A DNA stretch of 44,661 bases. It comes from an uncultured Bacteroidales bacterium. Its GTDB lineage: Bacteria; Bacteroidota; Bacteroidia; Bacteroidales; P3. Numbering within the stretch: position 1 is the first letter of the stretch; every line of letters starts with the position of its first letter. The position numbers and the translations under genes are program-made. The notes under the pieces are model-generated. The model ran no database searches and had not been told where the DNA came from. It worked only from the letters and a program-made list of their open reading frames with translations. Below, piece after piece: positions 5,784 through 19,561 of the stretch. The stretch spans positions 1 through 44,661 of the forward strand of contig CAMVAA010000002.1 of NCBI GenBank assembly GCA_947165345.1, written 5' to 3'.

Positions 5784-8633
5784 TTATTCGGCCCATACGG
5801 CCTGCAGATTACGGTCGCCGTAGGCGTCGTCTATCTTGCTGATGGTGGGCCAGTACTTCTCGCAGTGGGGCTGCGGGAAGGCGGCTTTCTGGCGGCTATA
5901 GGGCAGAGTCCACTCATCGGCGCAGACCACCTGCATAGTGTGCGGGGCGTTGCAGATCGGGTTGTTCTTCTCGTCGCTCTTGCCGGTCATGATATCGTCG
6001 ATTTCCTGACGGATGGCGATCATGGCGTCGCAGAAGCGGTCGAGTTCGCTCAGCGGCTCGCTCTCAGTAGGCTCGACCATGAGAGTGTTGTGCACCGGGA
6101 AGGCCACAGTGGGAGCGTGGAAGCCATAGTCCATGAGGCGCTTGGCGACGTCGCCAACGCTGACCTTGAGGCTGAACTCGCTGAAGTCGACGATCATCTC
6201 GTGGCCACACATGCCGTTCTTGCCGGTGTAGAGTATCTTATAGTACTTCTGCAGACGGGCGCGGAGGTAGTTGGCGTTGAGAATGGCGTGGACGGTGGCC
6301 GAGGTGAGGCCTTCGCCACCGAGCATAAGGAGGTATCCGTAGGTGATGGGCAGGAGCATGGCGCTGCCATAGGGGGCTGCGGCCATGGTGTTGCCCTGCT
6401 TGCCTCCGACCTCGACGACGGGGTGGGTGGGCAGGAAGTCGACCAGTTTCTGGCTGACGCAGATGGGGCCAACGCCGGGACCGCCACCGCCGTGAGGCAT
6501 AGCAAAGGTCTTGTGCAGATTGAGGTGGCAGACGTCGGCACCCATGCGGCCGGGGCTTGTGAGGCCAACCTGGGCATTCATATTGGCGCCGTCCATATAG
6601 ACAAGAGCGCCCATGCTGTGGATGATATTGATGATATCGAGGATGCCCTCTTCGAAGGCACCGTGGGTCGACGGGTAGGTGATCATCAGGCAGCTGAGAG
6701 TGTCCTTATACTGCTCGGCTTTGGCGCGCAGGTCGTCAATATCGACGTCGCCGCGTTCGTTGCACTTGACAACTACTACAGTCATGCCGGCCTTGGCAGC
6801 GGAGGCGGGGTTGGTGCCGTGGGCAGAAGCCGGGATGAGGCATACGTTGCGCTGGCTCTGGCCGTTGGCGATGTGGTAGTTGCGGATAACGGTGAGGCCG
6901 CTGTATTCGCCATAGGCGCCGCTGTTGGGCTGCAACGAGCAACCGGCAAAGCCTGTGATGACGGCGAGTCGGCGCTCGATGTCGTGAATCATCTCGAGGT
7001 AACCCTCGGCCTGGTCAGCGGGGACGAAGGGGTGCATACCACCGAACTTGCTCCAAGAGAGGGGCATCATTTCGGCGGCGGCATTGAGCTTCATGGTGCA
7101 GGATCCGAGAGGTATCATGGCACGGTTGAGGGAGAGGTCTTTCTCCTCGAGGCGTTTGATGTAGCGCATCATGGAGGTCTCGTCGTGGTAGGAGTTGAAG
7201 ACTTTCTCACGGAGGTAGGCGCTCTTGCGTTTGAGGTCGGCGGGGATGGCCTCGTCGGCTATGTGGCAGCAGCAGCCTTTGCACTCGAGGGGTTGTGCCT
7301 TCTTGCCTGCAGCTTCGGCGAGGCAGGCGACGATGGCGTCGAGGTCGGTCTTCTCTGTAGTTTCGTCGATGGAGATGCCGATGCACTCGTCGCAGATGTA
7401 ACGGAAGTTGATTTCGTGCTTGAGGGCCACTTCACGTACTTTGGCGGTGGGCACAGGGCACTGGAGGGCGAGGGTATCGAAGTAGACCTTGTTCCACTGC
7501 TTGTAGCCATACTGCTCCAGCTCGGCAGCGAGGCGGTGGGCACGGCCGCAGATGCGAGTGGCTATGTTGCAGATGCCTTCGGGGCCATGCCAGACGGCAT
7601 AGAAGCCGCTCATATTGGCCACGAGTGCGGCAGCGGTGCAGATATTGGAGGTGGCTTTGTCACGTTTAATGTGCTGTTCGCGCATTCCGAGGGCCATGCG
7701 GAGGGCGGGGTTGCCCTTGGCATCGACGCTCCATCCGATGATACGGCCGGGGAACTGACGTTTGAAGGCGTCGGTGAAGGCGAAGAAGCCGGCATGGGGA
7801 CCGCCGAAGCCCATCGGCAGACCGAAACGCTGCGCGTTGCCAACAGCGCAGTCAGCGCCCATCTCGCCGGGAGTCTTCATGAGGGCGAGAGCCATGAGGT
7901 CGGTAGCCATGCAGACAAAGATGCCTTTCTCATGGCACTTGGAGATGAAGTCCGTCCAATCCTGGGCCTCACCAAATTGGTTGGGATACTGCACAAAAGC
8001 GGCGAAGTATGACCCGTCGAGTTCGGTCTGGGCGGCTTTGCCGGTGACAACCTCGATGCCACGTGGGGCGGCGTTGGTCTTCATGACAGCCAAAGTCTGA
8101 GGCAGGATACCCTCATCGACAAACACCTTGCAGACGCCGTCCTTCTGGGCCTGGCGGCTGCGGCTATTGAAGAACATAATCATTGCCTCGCCAGCGGCGG
8201 TAGCTTCGTCGAGAAGGCTGGCGTTGCTGAGCGGCATGCCAGTCATGTCGGCCACCATGGTCTGGTAGTTCATCAGGGCTTCGAGACGGCCCTGCGAGAT
8301 CTCGGTTTGGTAAGGGGTGTAGCTTGTGTACCAGCCCGCATTCTCGAAGACGTTGCGCATGATGACGGCGGGCGTCACTGTGCCATAGTAGCCCATGCCG
8401 ATATAGCTGCGGTAGAGCTTGTTCTTTTTGGCCAGCGAGCGGCAACGGTTGAGGAAGGCATACTCGCTGATGCCCTCTTCAAGGGCGAGAGGCTGCTCGG
8501 CGCGGATAGCGGCCGGCACGGTCTTCTCTATGAGTTCATCCAAGCTGCTTACACCGATGGTGCCAAGCATTTTCTGCATATCGGCATCGCTCGAGACGCC
8601 GTTATGACGTGATGCAAAATGATCCTTTTTCAT
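5784..8633 (-). CDS. gcvP: Glycine dehydrogenase (aminomethyl-transferring), single-chain P protein
   Basis: 949 aa; NLHKTFAMPHGGGGPGVGPI PLP-lysine motif; typical N and C halves. Confidence 0.97.
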   Translation of the reverse strand: MKKDHFASRHNGVSSDADMQKMLGTIGVSSLDELIEKTVPAAIRAEQPLALEEGISEYAFLNRCRSLAKKNKLYRSYIGMGYYGTVTPAVIMRNVFENAGWYTSYTPYQTEISQGRLEALMNYQTMVADMTGMPLSNASLLDEATAAGEAMIMFFNSRSRQAQKDGVCKVFVDEGILPQTLAVMKTNAAPRGIEVVTGKAAQTELDGSYFAAFVQYPNQFGEAQDWTDFISKCHEKGIFVCMATDLMALALMKTPGEMGADCAVGNAQRFGLPMGFGGPHAGFFAFTDAFKRQFPGRIIGWSVDAKGNPALRMALGMREQHIKRDKATSNICTAAALVANMSGFYAVWHGPEGICNIATRICGRAHRLAAELEQYGYKQWNKVYFDTLALQCPVPTAKVREVALKHEINFRYICDECIGISIDETTEKTDLDAIVACLAEAAGKKAQPLECKGCCCHIADEAIPADLKRKSAYLREKVFNSYHDETSMMRYIKRLEEKDLSLNRAMIPLGSCTMKLNAAAEMMPLSWSKFGGMHPFVPADQAEGYLEMIHDIERRLAVITGFAGCSLQPNSGAYGEYSGLTVIRNYHIANGQSQRNVCLIPASAHGTNPASAAKAGMTVVVVKCNERGDVDIDDLRAKAEQYKDTLSCLMITYPSTHGAFEEGILDIINIIHSMGALVYMDGANMNAQVGLTSPGRMGADVCHLNLHKTFAMPHGGGGPGVGPICVSQKLVDFLPTHPVVEVGGKQGNTMAAAPYGSAMLLPITYGYLLMLGGEGLTSATVHAILNANYLRARLQKYYKILYTGKNGMCGHEMIVDFSEFSLKVSVGDVAKRLMDYGFHAPTVAFPVHNTLMVEPTESEPLSELDRFCDAMIAIRQEIDDIMTGKSDEKNNPICNAPHTMQVVCADEWTLPYSRQKAAFPQPHCEKYWPTISKIDDAYGDRNLQAVWAE

Positions 8634-8648
8634 TTATAAATATGTTGT

Positions 8649-10151
8649 TTATTTGTTTTTCCTGTGGAAGAATCGCAGCACCTGCTCGTTGTCGACGGTA
8701 GTGATGCGAATAATGTAATAACCCGTCGGGTAGCGGCGCATGTTGATGCGACCACGGCGGGGCTTTCCGGTCTGCACGCACAGGCCAGCGTCGTTGTAAA
8801 GTGCCACGCTCACAATGTCGTTCTTGTCCATCGGCACCTCGAGGCGTCGCTTGTCGGCATTGTACACCACGGCGTCTTGCGAGCCTATGGGTTCCGCCAC
8901 GTCGTTCACCTCGTAATATTCATATATCACCTCTATGCCGTCCTTGTAGATGGTGTCGTGTATATACTCCGTCTGGCGCACCACGTCGGCGGGCTGCACG
9001 AGGGCGGTGTACGTAGCTGTGTCGCCAGCCACCACGCGGCGCGGGTTGTCGCTGTTGCCGTCGCTCCATCCGCGGAAGCCGTAGCCAGCGTAGCACACCG
9101 CCACGAGGGTGACGGTGTCGCCCGGGGTGTATGTGCCACCGCCGTAGACCTCGCCGGCCATGGGGTTGCTCACTGCACCTACGATGTCGACCGTGCAGGG
9201 TTCGATGGCTTTGATGGTGCGTATCTTGCTCCATCCTTCAGCCTCGCCGTAGCGGTCGGTGCTGATACACGGCACGTTGAGGACCGTAGTGCGACTCAGT
9301 CCACCGAAGACCTCGCTTCCGAGTGCAGGCGGCACTATGGCTTTCGACGTCAGGACTTTCATATTGACACACTGATAGAACGCCCTCTGGTCGATGCGTT
9401 CCACACGGCCCGGTATCTCGAGGCTCGTGGTAGCATGGCACTGAGCGAAGGCATAGGGGCCTATCGTGCGCACCGATGCCGGCAGCCGCAGGTCGCCCTT
9501 GATGGCATAGCAGAAGGCGAAGGCATATTCGCCAATGTACTCCACCGACGGCGGAAGCGCCCACTCGCTGTTCACCATGTTCATACCGACGAAGGCGTAG
9601 TCGGGTATACGTTGCACCCGGTTGCCGAAGCTCAGCTTGTGCAGTTTTTTGCAGCCCATGAAGACGGCGCCGCTGCGGCTGCCGCCCATGGTCTCGCAAG
9701 ACACGGCGTTGTATACCAGCTCAGTGATGCCCGAGCAGCCGAAGAATGCGGACCGGCCGATGGAGACCACGTTCTCGCCGATGGTCACCACCCCTTTTAT
9801 GCCGCTGCAGTTACTGAAGGCATAAGAGCCTATCTCCACCACCGTAGTCGGGAGGGTGAGGCCACTGATTTTGGCACATCCAGCGAAAGCCCGTTCGCCA
9901 ATAGACACCACGGTGTATTTCACGCCGAAGTATTCCACCTCGGCCGGCATGTCGAGCACCCCGTTGGGGGCATTGTGACCCGTCCAGCGATAGGTGCCGC
10001 TCTCGTTGGGTGCGCAAACCTCAGCGGTTTTGCGCTCCTCGTCGATAATATTGAAATAGAGGGAATAGCCCTGCATGGGCACTTCGAAGTCGAAGGCCCA
10101 TGCAAAGCATACCATACCCTGCATCAACAGGGCAAGAAACAATCGTTTCAT
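8649..10151 (-). CDS. BspA-like leucine-rich-repeat surface protein with T9SS-like C-terminal tail
   Basis: Signal peptide MKRLFLALLMQGMVCFAWA; LRR_5 repeats (VVSIGERAFAGCAKISGLTLPTTVVEIGSYAFSNCSGI); C-terminus GRINMRRYPTGYYIIRITTVDNEQVLRFFHRKNK. Upstream ORF extension (to 10358) is spurious. Confidence 0.85.
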   Translation of the reverse strand: MKRLFLALLMQGMVCFAWAFDFEVPMQGYSLYFNIIDEERKTAEVCAPNESGTYRWTGHNAPNGVLDMPAEVEYFGVKYTVVSIGERAFAGCAKISGLTLPTTVVEIGSYAFSNCSGIKGVVTIGENVVSIGRSAFFGCSGITELVYNAVSCETMGGSRSGAVFMGCKKLHKLSFGNRVQRIPDYAFVGMNMVNSEWALPPSVEYIGEYAFAFCYAIKGDLRLPASVRTIGPYAFAQCHATTSLEIPGRVERIDQRAFYQCVNMKVLTSKAIVPPALGSEVFGGLSRTTVLNVPCISTDRYGEAEGWSKIRTIKAIEPCTVDIVGAVSNPMAGEVYGGGTYTPGDTVTLVAVCYAGYGFRGWSDGNSDNPRRVVAGDTATYTALVQPADVVRQTEYIHDTIYKDGIEVIYEYYEVNDVAEPIGSQDAVVYNADKRRLEVPMDKNDIVSVALYNDAGLCVQTGKPRRGRINMRRYPTGYYIIRITTVDNEQVLRFFHRKNK

Positions 10152-10197
10152 CGTTCTGTCATTTGATCTGACATTCGTCACACTATGTTTCGACGAC

Positions 10198-11820
10198 TCA
10201 CACCTTGGGACCGGCGGCCACGAGGGCTTTGCCGGCTGCGTTGTGGGTGAACTTGTCGAAGTTCTTCTCAAAGCGAGCCGCAAGGTCGCGGGCTTTCTCG
10301 TCCCACTGCGCTGCGTTGGCGTAGGTGTCGCGCGGGTCGAGAATCTTCGGGTCCACACCCGGCAGCGCTGTAGGCACTTCGAAGTCGAAGTAGGGTATCT
10401 TCTTAGTCTCGGCCTTCAGGATGCTGCCGTCGAGGATGGCGTCGATAATTCCACGCGTATCTTTAATACTGATACGCTTGCCGGTGCCGTTCCATCCGGT
10501 GTTCACCAGATAGGCCTTGGCGCCGCTCTTCTCCATGCGTTTCACCAGTTCCTCGGCATACTTGGTGGGATGCAGCTCGAGGAATGCCTGACCGAAGCAG
10601 GCGCTGAATGTCGGCGTCGGCTCGGTGATGCCACGCTCGGTGCCGGCCAGCTTGGCCGTGAAGCCGCTGAGGAAGTAGTATTTGCACTGCTCGGCGGTGA
10701 GGATGCTCACCGGAGGGAGCACGCCGAAGGCGTCGGCCGAGAGGAAGATGACATTCTCGGCGGCGGGGCCGGCGCTCTTGCCGTGGACCGGCATCACTAT
10801 CTTCTCGATGTGGTCTATGGGGTAGCTCACGCGGGTGTTCTCGGTGACGCTCTTGTCGGCGAAGTCAATCTTGCCGTCGGCGGCCACGGTGACATTCTCC
10901 AGCAGGGCGTTGCGGCGGATGGCGTTGTAGATGTCAGGCTCGCTGTCCTTGTCGAGGTTGATGACCTTGGCGTAGCAACCGCCCTCGAAGTTGAAGACGC
11001 CCTCGTCGTCCCAGCCGTGCTCGTCGTCGCCAATGAGGAGACGCTTGGGGTCGGTGGAGAGGGTGGTCTTGCCGGTGCCGCTCAGGCCGAAGAAGATGGC
11101 CGTATGCTGTCCCTGCATGTCGGTGTTGGCCGAGCAGTGCATGGCGGCGATACCGCGCAGCGGCAGGTAGTAGTTCATCATCGAGAACATGCCTTTCTTC
11201 ATCTCGCCGCCGTACCAGGTGTTGAGGATCACCTGCTCGCGCGAACTGACGTTGAAGGCCACGCAGGTCTCGCTGTTCAACCCCAACTCTTTGTAGTTCT
11301 CCACCTTGGCCTTGCTGGCGGTGTAGACGGTGAAACTGGGCTGGAAGTCCTTGAGCTCGTCGGCGGTGGACTTGATGAACATGTTGCGCACGAAGTGGGC
11401 CTGCCAGGCCACCTCCATAATGAAGCGCACGGCGATGCGGGTGTCCTTGTTGGCGCCGCAGAAGGCGTCGACCACGAAGAGTTCCTTGCCGCAGAGTTCC
11501 TTGACGGCCAGGTTCTTCATCTTGCCCCACACCTCCTCGCTCATCGGGTGGTTGTCGTTCTTGTACTCGTCGCTGGTCCACCAGACGGTGTCCTTCGACT
11601 GTGCATCCATCACAATATATTTGTCCTTGGGCGAGCGGCCGGTGTAGATACCGGTCATCACGTTCACGGCGTCCAGCTCTGTGAGCTGACCTTTGTCATA
11701 GCCCGTGAGAGCGGGATCCATCTCGAACTTGAACAGGTCTTCGTACGAGGGGTTGTAGTGGATGCCTTTGACACCGGTGATACCCAGTGTTTCAAGGTCT
11801 TTTCTGATTTTCTCGTTCAT
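10198..11820 (-). CDS. pckA: Phosphoenolpyruvate carboxykinase (ATP)
   Basis: 540 aa; [28 protein letters not shown] kinase motif. Confidence 0.97.
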
Positions 11821-11856: not shown

Positions 11857-13323
11857 CTATTCACCTTTCATTGTCATCTTGTACAAATTGACCGATCCAT
11901 CGATGTCCTTTTCTGCAGCAGAGTTGCCATACTTGTCCACGTCGAAGACGTTTTTCGGCGAGCGAGTGATACTCAAAGGACCGCCGACGCATCCGCCGTC
12001 GCATGCCATGCCTTCGAAGAAGTTGGCGGTCTCTTTCTTGGCTCGCAACAGGGCTAAATGCTGACGGCACTGGTCTATTCCGTTCATAACGCAGGGGTTC
12101 ACCCCTTCCAGCCCCAGCTTTTCGGCCACATGGACCACACCTTGGGCTATACCGCCGCTCTTTGCGAAGATACGTCCATAGAAGGAAGCATTGTCTAGGT
12201 GGGTGTCCTCACATTGCGTTGTGTCGATTCCACGTGCGTCGAGGAATGCCTGCAACTCTTCAAAGCTCATCACACAATCAATCATTCCCTGGGTCTTCTC
12301 GAGCGTATACTCGAATTTCTTGGCGGCGCAAGGACCGATAAAGACAACTTTAGCGGTGGGGTCGCTACGCTTTATAAGACGTGCGGTAGTAATCATCGGT
12401 GAGGGCGATGTAGAGATGGCGTCTTTGAACTCGGGAAAATTGGTCTCTATGAAACGCACAAAAGCTGGACAACAACTAGTTGTCATAACAGGGCTGTCGC
12501 TCTCTGAGGCTTTGTGCTGGAATTCACGAGCTTCAGTATAGAGGGTGATGTCGGCACCGAGGGCAGCTTCCACTACCTGATGGAAACCTAGTCGCTTGAT
12601 AGCGGTGACCACCTGTTCGATACGGCCGAACCGGCATTGTCCGACAATGGCAGGAGCAATGACAGCATAGACACGGTATTTAGAATTGTTTTCCGACTGT
12701 TTCAACATGTCGATAATGTCGAGTACTAACGAACGGTCAGTAATGGCACCGAAGGGGCAACTAACCACACAGGCACCGCAGGAAATGCATTTGTCGTTGT
12801 CGATGACAGCCTTGTCGTCCTCTTTTCGTATGGAAAGAGCCTTGGGCTTGCAACTCTTGATACAAGGGCGTTTCTGGGCTATGATTGCACTGTAGGGACA
12901 GGCTGCAGCACATTTGCCACACTCAATGCACTTCTCTTTATCGATATGGCATCGGTGGTTGACAATAGTGATGGCACCCTTGGGGCAAACCTCCTTGCAG
13001 GAATGCATCATGCAGCCTCTGCACGCCTCGGTGACAAGCATACCGGCTGCGGGACATTCGTCGCAAGCAATTTCCATCACCTGAACAGGGTTGGGATTAT
13101 CCTTATTGCCGCCCATGGCCATGTGGATTCGCTCCTGGACAATGGCGCGTTCTTTGTATATACAGCAGTTAAGTTCCGATTTAGGGCCCGGACTTATAAG
13201 TTTTGGTATCTCCAAGTATGCCTCGTCGAGCCCCCCATCGTATGCGCGACGGATGACCTCTTTGAGGACTTTATATTTAATCCATTGTACGTTAGTATCG
13301 AATAGTTTCTGCTCCATAATCAA
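11857..13323 (-). CDS. [FeFe] hydrogenase catalytic-domain protein, group-B-like monomeric form
   Basis: Two C-x2-C-x2-C-x3-C ferredoxin-type motifs; H-cluster motifs TTSCCPAFVRF, IGPCAAKKFE, GMACDGGCVGGP. Confidence 0.85.
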   Translation of the reverse strand: MIMEQKLFDTNVQWIKYKVLKEVIRRAYDGGLDEAYLEIPKLISPGPKSELNCCIYKERAIVQERIHMAMGGNKDNPNPVQVMEIACDECPAAGMLVTEACRGCMMHSCKEVCPKGAITIVNHRCHIDKEKCIECGKCAAACPYSAIIAQKRPCIKSCKPKALSIRKEDDKAVIDNDKCISCGACVVSCPFGAITDRSLVLDIIDMLKQSENNSKYRVYAVIAPAIVGQCRFGRIEQVVTAIKRLGFHQVVEAALGADITLYTEAREFQHKASESDSPVMTTSCCPAFVRFIETNFPEFKDAISTSPSPMITTARLIKRSDPTAKVVFIGPCAAKKFEYTLEKTQGMIDCVMSFEELQAFLDARGIDTTQCEDTHLDNASFYGRIFAKSGGIAQGVVHVAEKLGLEGVNPCVMNGIDQCRQHLALLRAKKETANFFEGMACDGGCVGGPLSITRSPKNVFDVDKYGNSAAEKDIDGSVNLYKMTMKGE

Positions 13324-14483
13324 TCGTAGTTCACGGTTACATTTTTACCCATCTTGCTAAGGTTGGCGGCCAAACGCTCGACGAGTTTGAGTTTCATAGT
13401 TATATCAATATCAAGTCCCTGATGGGCAGCGTTGACATTCTGTCCGACAAAGAACACCACGTGCGTGGCTTCCTCGAAGATGATGTTCGCCAGCAGCGAA
13501 CCGCCATCTTTCTTGGCATAAGTCTTTGGTGTAAGGTCTTTCTCTGAAACGTATTTCTCTGATAGCGACAATAGGCGTCGCAGCGTGATAACGCCCTCTG
13601 TGACAAGGTCGATGCCGTCAATGAATCCTATGGGAGGTACATCTTTGTCAGGAAAGTCGAAGCTGGTCTTCAACTGTCGACCGATACAACGAGCCACTAC
13701 CTGTGAGGTAGTGCCGCCGCATACTATGCGTTTGTCGGCGTCCATCATGAACCGATGGACATATTCCTCGTCTTTTTCCTTGTCTACAGGCGGACCAACC
13801 ATGATATGCACCATTGTACGAGGACGCATGCGAATAGCAGCCACCGTAGTGTCGTCGCCCGGCTTGTCAAGATATAGGTCATTGCATGCCGAAGCAAGAA
13901 GACAGGCCGCGGCTCGGGCCGACATGTGGGCGTCGATGTTGTGGTCGAGGTGTTCCATTATTTCCTTGCGCTGCCATCCGAAGTTCAGCATCTGTCCGAT
14001 GCCGGCATGTATAGTGCCGTCACTCATCACGAAGACCATGTCTCCCTCATCAAGTTCAAGTTCAGTGACAAACACGCGCTTGTTGTAAACGTTCATTTCC
14101 TCACGAGGAAAATCGCAAGTATGACCGTGATGGTACCAGATAGCCTCAGGGTTGTCGAACTCAAATAGGTGTCCCCTACCCTCATTGTTAACGTGTATGA
14201 TAGAGAAAGTGCTGTAGGCAACGCCACGCTCTTTGCATACAGGTAGCGTCTGGATGATGGTACCGACACAATCCTCTATATCGGCACCGCCGGCCACCAT
14301 CGTGCAAAGTATCTTGCTCGTGAGCGTGGATAGTATGTTGGCTTTCACTCCGCTTCCAAGTCCGTCGGCAAGCACCAACGTCGTCCACTCACCATCCGAG
14401 GTCAACTCCACGTTATCCCCGCAGAGTTCCTCGCCATAGTGGTTCAGCGAAGTGTATCCGTATTCTACACAGAGTTTTTTCAT
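13320..14483 (-). CDS. SpoIIE/PP2C-family serine phosphatase (hydrogenase-associated)
   Basis: TTLVLADGLGSGVKAN and GDMVFVMSDGTIHAG, GDDTTVAAIRM motifs; 4-bp overlap with downstream hydrogenase gene. Confidence 0.87.
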   Translation of the reverse strand: MKKLCVEYGYTSLNHYGEELCGDNVELTSDGEWTTLVLADGLGSGVKANILSTLTSKILCTMVAGGADIEDCVGTIIQTLPVCKERGVAYSTFSIIHVNNEGRGHLFEFDNPEAIWYHHGHTCDFPREEMNVYNKRVFVTELELDEGDMVFVMSDGTIHAGIGQMLNFGWQRKEIMEHLDHNIDAHMSARAAACLLASACNDLYLDKPGDDTTVAAIRMRPRTMVHIMVGPPVDKEKDEEYVHRFMMDADKRIVCGGTTSQVVARCIGRQLKTSFDFPDKDVPPIGFIDGIDLVTEGVITLRRLLSLSEKYVSEKDLTPKTYAKKDGGSLLANIIFEEATHVVFFVGQNVNAAHQGLDIDITMKLKLVERLAANLSKMGKNVTVNYD

Positions 14484-14485
14484 AT

Positions 14486-14520
14486 TTCACCTTTCACTAT
14501 TCACCAATCACTTGTCACTT
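14486..14520 (-). repeat. Heptamer tandem array (5 units; TCAC at 14487, 14494, 14501, 14508, 14515)
   Basis: Exact 7-bp spacing; on minus strand each unit carries GTGA; overlaps last codons and stop of the hydS-like gene. Confidence 0.8.
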
Positions 14521-16268
14521 ACCTTTGCCGTTTTCCAATCTTTCGGACGTCCGTCCACTCCAAGATCTCCCTGACCGTCGGTGAGTGTTTTCTTTAATTT
14601 AAGCAGTGCCACTTTAGTCTCAGCGGTTGTCTCGCCCAATAGTGAGGCAATCTCTTGCGCCACACGCATCTGCTTCATAATAAGGTCATCGGTGGTGGAT
14701 ACGGTGTCCATGCGCACTTGCTCCAACTTCTTGTCATAGTTCACCATCTCGGAAATATCCTTCATCAGGCCAAATAGCAGGTTCTGCTCACTTAGCAGGC
14801 TTACTGTCAGGCTCAGATACCGGTCGGTGGCATTGATGTGCAGACGCGGATTCTCCACGCGTTGTTTCTTCGAGTAAGCGTTGTAGAAGTCTATAGGCTG
14901 GAAACTTTCCGAAACAGGACGGCCTACCACACTCTCGGGAGTGCCGGTGAGGCCCAGCATCTTCATGGCCGATGCGTTGATGTCCACGATATTCATGTCG
15001 GGGTCGACAAGCATCACGCCTTCAGGCGAGTTTCGGACAATATCCACAGCCAGGCTTTCTGCGCGCTTGCGCATGTAGGGCAGGCATATATCGATGTCGG
15101 CATAGCCGTTCACCACGGCCCAGGCTTTTTCGCGGCAGGTGCGATAGCCGCAGGCACCACAATCAAGCTCGTCGGCTTTGGTAAATTTGCCGGTACGGTG
15201 CAGCACATCCTCAATCTCTTTGTCGCTGGCTGGACGACTCTTGGCACGCAGACGCGGATGGGCGTAAGCCAACGACACCCCTGCGTCGGCCGCAGGCAGA
15301 TGTTTGCGTGTAGCCATCTCGTGTTCCACATAGCGGTCGATATCTGCCTCAGCCTTAATCATACCGCCATCGTGTGCAATAGAGCAAGGTCCGTTGATGC
15401 AGCCACCGGGACACACGTTCATCTCTATGAACACGTGGTCCATAGACTCAATGTTTTCCAACACATCGGCAATACGGTCCACGCCGTCCACTGTCATGTA
15501 TCGGTAGCCTTCCGGCAAAGCGTCGAACGAGCGTATAATGCCCTGCGTTACAGGATAAGCTTTCGCGCGGTTGGCGATGTCGCACTCGTCGCCTACCGTA
15601 AGTTTGTTTATAGTATTCAGGTCTATGCCGTTTTCTTCAAATAGCTGCAACAGTTCCTCGAAAGTAATGACGGCATCTATGGCGTGTTCATCGGCCTCGC
15701 GTTTTTTTGCTATACAAGGACCGACGAAGACTATTTTCAAGTTTGGGTCGTTGCGGCGCAACATTTTTGCATGTGCCACCATCGGCGAGTCGACAGGGGC
15801 CAGATAGGGCAGAGCTTTGGGATAGTACATCTGTATCAGGCGACAGGCTGCCGGACAAGCCGACGTGATAAAGTTGCGCATTTCGCCTTTGGCCAGCACT
15901 CGTTTGTACTCTTCGGTGACGGCTTGTGCGCCGATGGCCGTCTCTTCGGCTATAGCAAAACCTAGTTTGGCAAGCGCTATGCGTAATACCGAGAAGTCAT
16001 CCTGTACAAGACTGCTGATAAACGACGGCGCCACCGTAGCAGCCATACGGGCACCACTCTTGAGCAACTCGCGCACCACAGGTAGCTCGCTATGCTCTAT
16101 CTTGGCATGCTGGGGGCATACCTTGGTGCAATGGCCACATAGGATGCAGTGCTCCTCGATGATTTGCGCGTGATGGTCCTTGATGTTGATGGCCTTCACC
16201 GGGCATTCGCGTAGGCAACGGTAGCAGTCTTTACATCGTACAGTCTTGAATTCCAAATACTCGGACAT
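14508..16268 (-). CDS. hydS: Sensory [FeFe] hydrogenase, group-C (HydS)-like, with C-terminal PAS domain
   Basis: N-terminal 2x[4Fe-4S]; H-cluster motifs TSACPAACR, VGPCIAKKRE, MNVCPGGCINGP; CGACGYRTC cluster; PAS (RNSPEGVMLVDPDMNIVDINASAMKMLG). Confidence 0.87.
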   Translation of the reverse strand: MSEYLEFKTVRCKDCYRCLRECPVKAINIKDHHAQIIEEHCILCGHCTKVCPQHAKIEHSELPVVRELLKSGARMAATVAPSFISSLVQDDFSVLRIALAKLGFAIAEETAIGAQAVTEEYKRVLAKGEMRNFITSACPAACRLIQMYYPKALPYLAPVDSPMVAHAKMLRRNDPNLKIVFVGPCIAKKREADEHAIDAVITFEELLQLFEENGIDLNTINKLTVGDECDIANRAKAYPVTQGIIRSFDALPEGYRYMTVDGVDRIADVLENIESMDHVFIEMNVCPGGCINGPCSIAHDGGMIKAEADIDRYVEHEMATRKHLPAADAGVSLAYAHPRLRAKSRPASDKEIEDVLHRTGKFTKADELDCGACGYRTCREKAWAVVNGYADIDICLPYMRKRAESLAVDIVRNSPEGVMLVDPDMNIVDINASAMKMLGLTGTPESVVGRPVSESFQPIDFYNAYSKKQRVENPRLHINATDRYLSLTVSLLSEQNLLFGLMKDISEMVNYDKKLEQVRMDTVSTTDDLIMKQMRVAQEIASLLGETTAETKVALLKLKKTLTDGQGDLGVDGRPKDWKTAKVSDK

Positions 16269-16286
16269 GATTCTATAGCTATTGTC

Positions 16287-16586
16287 TTAGTTAATAAATA
16301 GTTTGGGGTAGATTTCTTTGGCGAACAGTTCTTCCGCATTGCCAGCATTGACACTGTGCAAGATGAACCCTTCCGGGGTTTCCTCCACATGCGGTCCACG
16401 TTCCGAGGGTTCCATACCTTCGCATCCGACGTTTACACCCAATGCGCAGTGACCGAGGCAAAAGCTTGCTTGCAAATCAATGACGTCTTCCACATCATAT
16501 TTTTTCAGCACTTCCTTGAATGCTTCAATGACTTCGTACGACCCTTTCAGATGGCATGAACTGCCGACACATACTTTGATTGTCAT
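16287..16586 (-). CDS. (2Fe-2S) thioredoxin-like ferredoxin (NuoE-like)
   Basis: KVCVGSSCHLKGS...ASFCLGHCALGVNVGCEG. Confidence 0.85.
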   Translation of the reverse strand: MTIKVCVGSSCHLKGSYEVIEAFKEVLKKYDVEDVIDLQASFCLGHCALGVNVGCEGMEPSERGPHVEETPEGFILHSVNAGNAEELFAKEIYPKLFIN

Positions 16587-16701: not shown

Positions 16702-19473
<2,772 letters not shown>

Positions 19474-19531
19474 CTCGATTAAATTATTTGTTATTAATTG
19501 ATTAGTTACTATTTTCTCCAAAACGAGATTG

Positions 19532-19561
19532 CAAAGGTACGCTTTTTTTTGGACATGACAA
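19532..19561 (-). promoter_or_regulatory. Bacteroidetes-type sigma promoter for ppdK (TTG-N19-TACCTTTG)
   Basis: Minus-strand TTG (19561-19559), 19-nt spacer, TACCTTTG (19539-19532); matches TTTG/TAnnTTTG consensus. Confidence 0.75.

Follow-up and report, generated by a model that had tools for sequence, protein, structure and literature searches.

A predicted phosphatase-linked [FeFe]-hydrogenase sensory cassette in a gut Bacteroidales genome and its kinship with the HydS cluster of R. albus

Group C [FeFe] hydrogenases encoded near a phosphatase have been proposed to act as H2 sensors (PMC5037454, PMC6776011), and the original prediction for the locus described here invoked the same idea, in agreement with that proposal. 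The HydDB classification names group C3 'phosphatase-linked (putative)' and group B 'colonic-type (putative)' (PMC5037454). Among the closest described systems is the pRUMAL01 cluster of R. albus 7 (RUMAL_RS17350-RS17385), whose annotated order is rex, adhE, a phosphotransferase gene, two ferredoxin genes, HydS, SpoIIE and a hydrogenase (HydA2). This cluster is 111-fold lower in co-culture with an H2 consumer, and the fermentation stoichiometries of R. albus track the H2 level (PMC6776011). Deletion of hfsA or hfsB in Thermoanaerobacterium gives a higher ethanol yield and higher adhE expression (PMC5707799; see also PMC11837493). The HydS protein of Thermotoga maritima is known to carry alanine at the proton-relay cysteine position (PMC10055695), with the two substitutions Cys to Ala and Met353 to Gly both reported (PMC10055695, PMC8163306).

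We analysed a 44,661-nucleotide stretch of DNA (the window; contig CAMVAA010000002.1 of assembly GCA_947165345.1) from a rumen/gut Bacteroidales genome that is 74% complete. Positions 11857-16586 of its minus strand hold a cassette of four genes, encoding a 2Fe-2S protein, a PAS-bearing HydS, a SpoIIE-type PP2C phosphatase and a group B [FeFe] hydrogenase, which were identified with Pfam and NCBIfam profiles (Table 1). Four open reading frames had been predicted at these positions and on this strand, and all are present. Their tight packing is borne out by gaps of 18 and 24 bp on either side of HydS, exactly as predicted, and the predicted 4-bp overlap between the phosphatase and second hydrogenase genes holds only for a TTG start at 13323; an in-frame ATG at 13317 would leave a 2-bp gap instead. 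The top PDB match of the 2Fe-2S protein is the C-terminal part of an Fe-hydrogenase alpha chain (7p5h_A, E=5.5e-9).

Table 1. Features of the cassette and its flanks, in window coordinates.
Feature	Coordinates	Strand	Details
Bacteroidetes-type promoter, TTG-N19-TACCTTTG	19532..19561	-	upstream of ppdK
ppdK, pyruvate phosphate dikinase	16702..19521	-	TIGR01828 1195 bits
Imperfect stem-loop	16629..16692	.	28-nt arms, 82%; ppdK-fdx gap
Thioredoxin-like [2Fe-2S] protein (HydC/NuoE-type), gene 1	16287..16586	-	99 aa; PF01257 E=8e-6
HydS, group C (phosphatase-linked, C3-type) sensory [FeFe] hydrogenase	14508..16268	-	586 aa; PF02906 159 bits, PF04060 and PAS
HydS A137-C138 in TSACP	15855..15860	-	Ala at proton-relay Cys position (CpI C299); cluster ligand Cys retained
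HydS C-terminal [4Fe-4S] motif Cx2Cx4Cx16C	15084..15161	-	residues 370-395; PF04060 39.7 bits
HydS PAS domain	14724..15053	-	PF13426 33.9 bits (cut-off 27); PF00989
HydS C-terminal helix (putative signalling)	14583..14711	-	most conserved HydS segment, 29/43 invariant (31 proteins)
SpoIIE-type PP2C protein phosphatase	13320..14483	-	387 aa; PF07228 47.5 bits
Uncharacterised phosphatase C-terminal alpha/beta domain	13323..13817	-	~165 aa; GPP...VCGGTT...GxDLxTEGxxTL...VG..N.AH
Group B (colonic-type, B1) monomeric [FeFe] hydrogenase	11857..13317 (to 13323 if TTG start)	-	488 aa from TTG; PF02906, TIGR04105
pckA, PEP carboxykinase (ATP)	10198..11820	-	TIGR00224 804 bits; 36 bp downstream of hydrogenase

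Scanning 84,980 species genomes yielded 80 loci of this kind, all from Bacteroidales/Bacteroidetes metagenome-assembled genomes and many of them from the rumen and other gut sites. The ferredoxin-like gene lies directly before HydS in all 80, the SpoIIE phosphatase follows HydS in all 79 testable loci, and the group B hydrogenase follows the phosphatase in 69 of 76 (37/37 close relatives and 32/39 sister loci). Because the order and strand of the first three genes are kept in every testable locus, the arrangement is not due to chance. The close relatives retain all four genes in 37 of 37 cases, with high protein conservation, and the testable sister loci often have AdhE (25/37) or Rex (27/37) encoded upstream. 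More remote Bacteroidales cassettes, at roughly 30-35% identity, mostly show the same order, often with a second 2Fe-2S gene. HydS and SpoIIE also remain adjacent in seven loci without a following group B gene (L115, L117-L122); in the Candidatus Colimorpha locus (L115, 3317-7502) that shorter cassette is convergent with HydABC-type hydrogenase genes. Genome G101 (L166-L167) presents a large H2/fermentation gene neighbourhood, in which rex-adhE-fdx-hydS-spoIIE-hydB is followed by apparent 4-hydroxybutyrate/succinate-semialdehyde genes and then by DRTGG-PHP-HATPase-DRTGG-RsbW-HydD.

The assignment of HydS to group C draws on several features. Its N-terminus has two [4Fe-4S] motifs matching Fer4, and its C-terminal Cx2Cx4Cx16C motif has the same form as in PMC8163306. 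The H-domain motifs TSACP, GPCIAKK and EMNVCPGGC are all present, the H-cluster ligand cysteines and the A137-C138 pair are invariant in 31 aligned HydS sequences, and glycine replaces Met353. In a tree built from 38 [FeFe] hydrogenase rows, with references drawn from Bacteroidales only and groups labelled by domains and motifs, HydS falls inside the C clade (99/95) with group D as its sister (99/96) and groups A and B outside, and two histidine kinase (HK)-linked group C proteins form a separate clade. One row, L172_4705, had been labelled C by a loose cysteine pattern; that label is wrong and the row is group B, as shown by a gene that follows SpoIIE and by where the row branches in the tree. 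The neighbour of HydS is a Ser/Thr phosphatase, a SpoIIE-type PP2C, and not a histidine kinase fusion, which is the mark of group C3. The predicted group-C-like character of the first hydrogenase is thus upheld by the C-terminal motif, the PAS domain, the Ala and Gly substitutions and the place in the tree. A translated match of a remote HydS in genome G113 (L018) has one internal TGA stop.

Within HydS, conservation is uneven across the 31 proteins, with 28 of 60 residues invariant in the Fer4 region versus only 5 of 110 in the PAS domain. The C-terminal region contains helices at residues 506-543 and 549-563 in an AF2 model whose confidence is low there (pTM 0.55, weak in the first 58 residues and at the C-terminus) and which was used for secondary structure only. 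In phosphatase-linked HydS proteins the helix ends in LLGETTAET, or LLGEN-type in remote relatives, and this LLGE-type end is absent from the two HK-linked and roughly twenty group D HydS proteins compared. From these sequences we infer that the helix may be the contact between HydS and the phosphatase.

The second hydrogenase passes the TIGR04105 (FeFe_hydrog_B1) model with 533.7 bits against a curated cut-off of 450, groups with other B-like enzymes in the tree, and has intact catalytic motifs (TSCCP, GPCAAKK, EGMACDGGC), so that its predicted group-B-like nature also stands. The original prediction noted the lack of a kinase and of a HydEFG maturase in the window, and neither is seen among the cassette and its neighbours; elsewhere in the genome are an RsbW-like kinase and the three maturases, HydE (511 bits, contig C4), HydG (499 bits, C88) and HydF (421 bits, C75), all above curated cut-offs. 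The original prediction was to be given up if the genome lacked hydEFG or if phylogeny placed both hydrogenases outside groups B and C; it survives because all three maturases are present and both enzymes lie within B/C. The same genome has a HydABC-like set of the bifurcating type on contig C32. A gcvP gene for the glycine cleavage P-protein lies at 5784-8633 of the window, about 3 kb beyond the cassette, and the glycine cleavage H-protein has been reported as necessary for H-cluster maturation (PMC12752695); the proximity is probably coincidence.

The phosphatase retains the metal-site motifs GDN, DGLGSG, SDG and GDDT, and the metal-binding residues D23, D40, D155, D210 and D211 are invariant in aligned relatives. 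Its AF2 model (pLDDT 81.6) has as top fold match the B. subtilis SpoIIE phosphatase (5mqh, E=2e-14), and from motifs and fold together the enzyme is predicted to be catalytically competent. The domain that follows had no accepted match in Pfam, NCBIfam or PDB profile searches; weak hits to DUF436 (E=0.02), MutT (E=0.002, in 3 of 14 members) and phosphoheptose isomerase (E=0.14) were considered and not accepted, and the PDB fold search with the whole model was driven by its PP2C part and did not resolve this domain. A phylum-wide search finds it in SpoIIE-length frames only, and the R. albus homologue covers it as well. It is a candidate for the part that chooses the target. In Acetoanaerobium noterae (L190, 9989-11170) a phosphatase of this type, ending in the same C-terminal domain, is encoded beside CoA-transferase-like genes, with no adjoining HydS.

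A Bacteroidetes-type promoter lies upstream of ppdK. No TAnnTTTG element was seen in the examined gaps from ppdK down to pckA, leaving the cassette with no recognisable promoter of its own, and ppdK is probably the first gene of the transcription unit in the source lineage; a single unit from ppdK to pckA would fit this layout. The stem-loop between ppdK and fdx may be a partial terminator or processing site. Several relatives have a different hairpin-like sequence at the same place, and several in which the cassette is not beside ppdK carry TAnnTTTG upstream of fdx. Conservation of the gap is poor, and inspection of the relatives' alignment by eye revealed no shared operator motif in it. Among testable close relatives PckA is encoded downstream in 22 of 29 and PpdK upstream in 15 of 26. 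Between gcvP and pckA (8649-10358) the window also encodes a leucine-rich repeat protein of the BspA type that has an InlB B-repeat-like domain and weakly matches a secretion tail.

A kinase that might oppose the phosphatase can be proposed from elsewhere in the genome. Contig C47 (L009, 231-2543) encodes in succession a DRTGG-like protein, an RsbW-like HATPase and a group D-type sensory hydrogenase with SSFCP, ITPC and Cx2Cx4Cx16C motifs and no PAS domain; the RsbW-like ATPase is the likeliest candidate. This trio is conserved in 30 of 30 loci, is convergent with and adjacent to the cassette in two (L074, L075) and lies about 10 kb downstream of it in G101. The module occurs in 19 of 27 cassette genomes compared with 65 of 267 without the cassette (Fisher p=2.6e-6) and with 26 of 83 genomes having HK-linked group C enzymes (Fisher p=6e-4), figures that are uncorrected for shared ancestry and suggestive only. 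A STAS anti-anti-sigma protein was also considered as the phosphatase target and set aside, the only STAS domains found being in a SulP-like transporter on C4 and in a self-contained Rsb cassette on C15. The latter (L041, 14-1824) is a separate unit with a HAMP-SpoIIE phosphatase and an RsbW-like kinase, and the STAS protein nearby.

The explanation that we favour, and consider probable, is that the locus is a sensory cassette with a group C3, phosphatase-linked [FeFe] hydrogenase, homologous to the HydS-phosphatase-HydA2 cluster of R. albus. It builds on the gene identities, intact motifs, conservation and homology observed here. The signal would be H2: at an H-cluster of low turnover, HydS would bind it or be reduced by way of its ferredoxin-like clusters, and the state of the H-domain would pass through the Cx2Cx4Cx16C cluster and PAS region to the conserved C-terminal helix, which would contact and gate the phosphatase. 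In the presumed direction of control the phosphatase would dephosphorylate a partner protein, to which its own C-terminal domain would direct it, and this would adjust how strongly the co-encoded ferredoxin-linked group B hydrogenase is expressed or how active it is, and likewise tune neighbouring fermentation enzymes, ppdK/pckA here and adhE in relatives and R. albus. Counted in its favour are the domains and motifs, the tree, the maturases, the homology and shared order with R. albus, the 111-fold change, the hfs deletions, the invariant Fdx-HydS-SpoIIE run with its usual group B gene, the helix specific to the phosphatase-linked class and the phosphatase fold. Counted against it are the adhE-less, 74% complete genome, the 65 of 84 kinase-module genomes without a cassette, a literature in which we found no biochemical evidence for H2 sensing or phosphatase control in any C3 member, and the report that the C-terminal cluster of the group D TamHydS is unresponsive to H2 (PMC13104023). 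The cassette could instead be an ordinary conserved operon whose signalling role was lost in the source lineage, a remnant after loss of adhE, which along with the R. albus phosphotransferase was not found beyond a weak partial match to adhE; with every motif intact and all four genes kept so faithfully by close relatives, we find this extremely unlikely.

What HydS responds to may also be read differently. The 2Fe-2S gene that always adjoins HydS, a Fer4 region far more conserved than the PAS domain, and the frequent upstream homologue of the NADH sensor Rex would all suit a protein that senses ferredoxin/NADH redox poise and not H2, its state being set by electrons supplied through the 2Fe-2S protein and the Fer4 clusters, and the H-cluster acting as a mere electron sink that tunes it. 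The H-cluster ligand cysteines would be needless in such a sensor, yet they are kept, and R. albus fermentation follows H2 (PMC6776011); we regard this reading as rather unlikely. Since T. maritima and T. mathranii HydS turn over H2 at a low rate (PMC10055695, PMC8163306), HydS might be a hydrogenase that catalyses slowly, or might form a complex together with the group B enzyme, the phosphatase then being a separate co-transcribed regulator, but the PAS domain, a C-terminal helix specific to the phosphatase-linked class, and the persistence of HydS-SpoIIE pairs where no group B gene follows, make that very unlikely. A further reading extends the sensory cassette and does not exclude it: the cassette would be half of a partner switch, and its phosphatase would remove phosphate from a protein to which the RsbW-like kinase of the DRTGG-RsbW-HydD module adds it. 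The presence of the module in the source genome, the constancy of the trio, its occasional place next to the cassette and the co-occurrence, uncorrected for kinship, speak for this; the module is also common without the cassette, and the sole small STAS protein found in the 74% complete genome sits with its own RsbW and phosphatase, so that we treat the partner switch as possible but tentative. Doubtful, and bolder still, is a push-pull form in which C3 HydS gates the SpoIIE phosphatase and group D HydS the RsbW-like kinase, both acting on one shared protein selected by the phosphatase C-terminal domain; H2 (or redox) would then set the phosphorylation of that protein from both sides.

In the gut, H2 is reported to come mainly from group B hydrogenases (PMC12578642), and the predicted sensory cassette bears on how fermentative bacteria of gut and rumen gauge H2 and adjust how much of it they release. 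The HydS helix, the phosphatase C-terminal domain and the kinase candidate are testable additions to the known system, and together with the cassette they make the target of a C3 phosphatase directly testable. We have not found described in the literature an LLGE-type ending specific, among the proteins compared, to phosphatase-linked HydS, the conserved phosphatase C-terminal domain, an RsbW-like kinase and group D hydrogenase as candidate partners of such a cassette, or a cassette that lies between ppdK and pckA and lacks a recognisable promoter.

Compared with B. subtilis SpoIIE and RsbU, the cassette phosphatase shares the PP2C fold and metal-site motifs, but has the extra C-terminal domain, and its control, if any, would come from a separate hydrogenase protein. 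HydS resembles its T. maritima namesake in the Ala at CpI C299, the Gly at M353, the H-cluster ligands, the PAS domain and the C-terminal cluster, and differs at the M497 position, which is Asn here and Ser in T. maritima. The hfsABCD genes of Thermoanaerobacterium, likened here by description alone, have a similar published order of HfsA, PAS hydrogenase HfsB, serine phosphatase HfsC and ferredoxin-linked hydrogenase HfsD (PMC11837493), although HfsA is described as a partial match to FeFe-hydrogenase large subunits and not as a 2Fe-2S protein. The HydS of the cassette adjoins the gene of a Ser/Thr phosphatase and its second hydrogenase belongs to group B, with no essential difference seen from the HydDB C3 and B classes. 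The R. albus 7 cluster shares the order Fdx-HydS-SpoIIE-hydrogenase and homology of all four proteins, with identities of 44% (Fdx2), 39% (HydS), 45% (phosphatase, full length) and 52% (HydA2); its second hydrogenase also passes TIGR04105 (577 bits), its HydS C-terminal helix is nearly identical, and its leading rex-adhE pair is shared with sister Bacteroidales loci. The window cassette, unlike it, has one 2Fe-2S gene instead of two and, sitting between ppdK and pckA, lacks rex, adhE and an APH-like phosphotransferase gene in front. In the 74% complete source genome rex has a homologue on contig C43, outside the cassette, no phosphotransferase homologue was found and adhE has only a partial match of 25% identity, so the target set of R. 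albus has not been kept here. In sequence the window cassette lies nearer to R. albus than does that of G183, a relative in the same family whose cassette proteins are 29-37% identical to Clostridial ones, which suggests that cassettes of the R. albus type and those of Bacteroidales may be linked by lateral transfer. The original prediction implied that a Bacteroidales version with a second hydrogenase was new; this does not hold, as the same order with a TIGR04105 hydrogenase occurs in R. albus and in many Bacteroidales. Being homologous to the described R. albus cluster, with the same order, the cassette is, as judged from its sequence, a Bacteroidales member of that system and not a new type.
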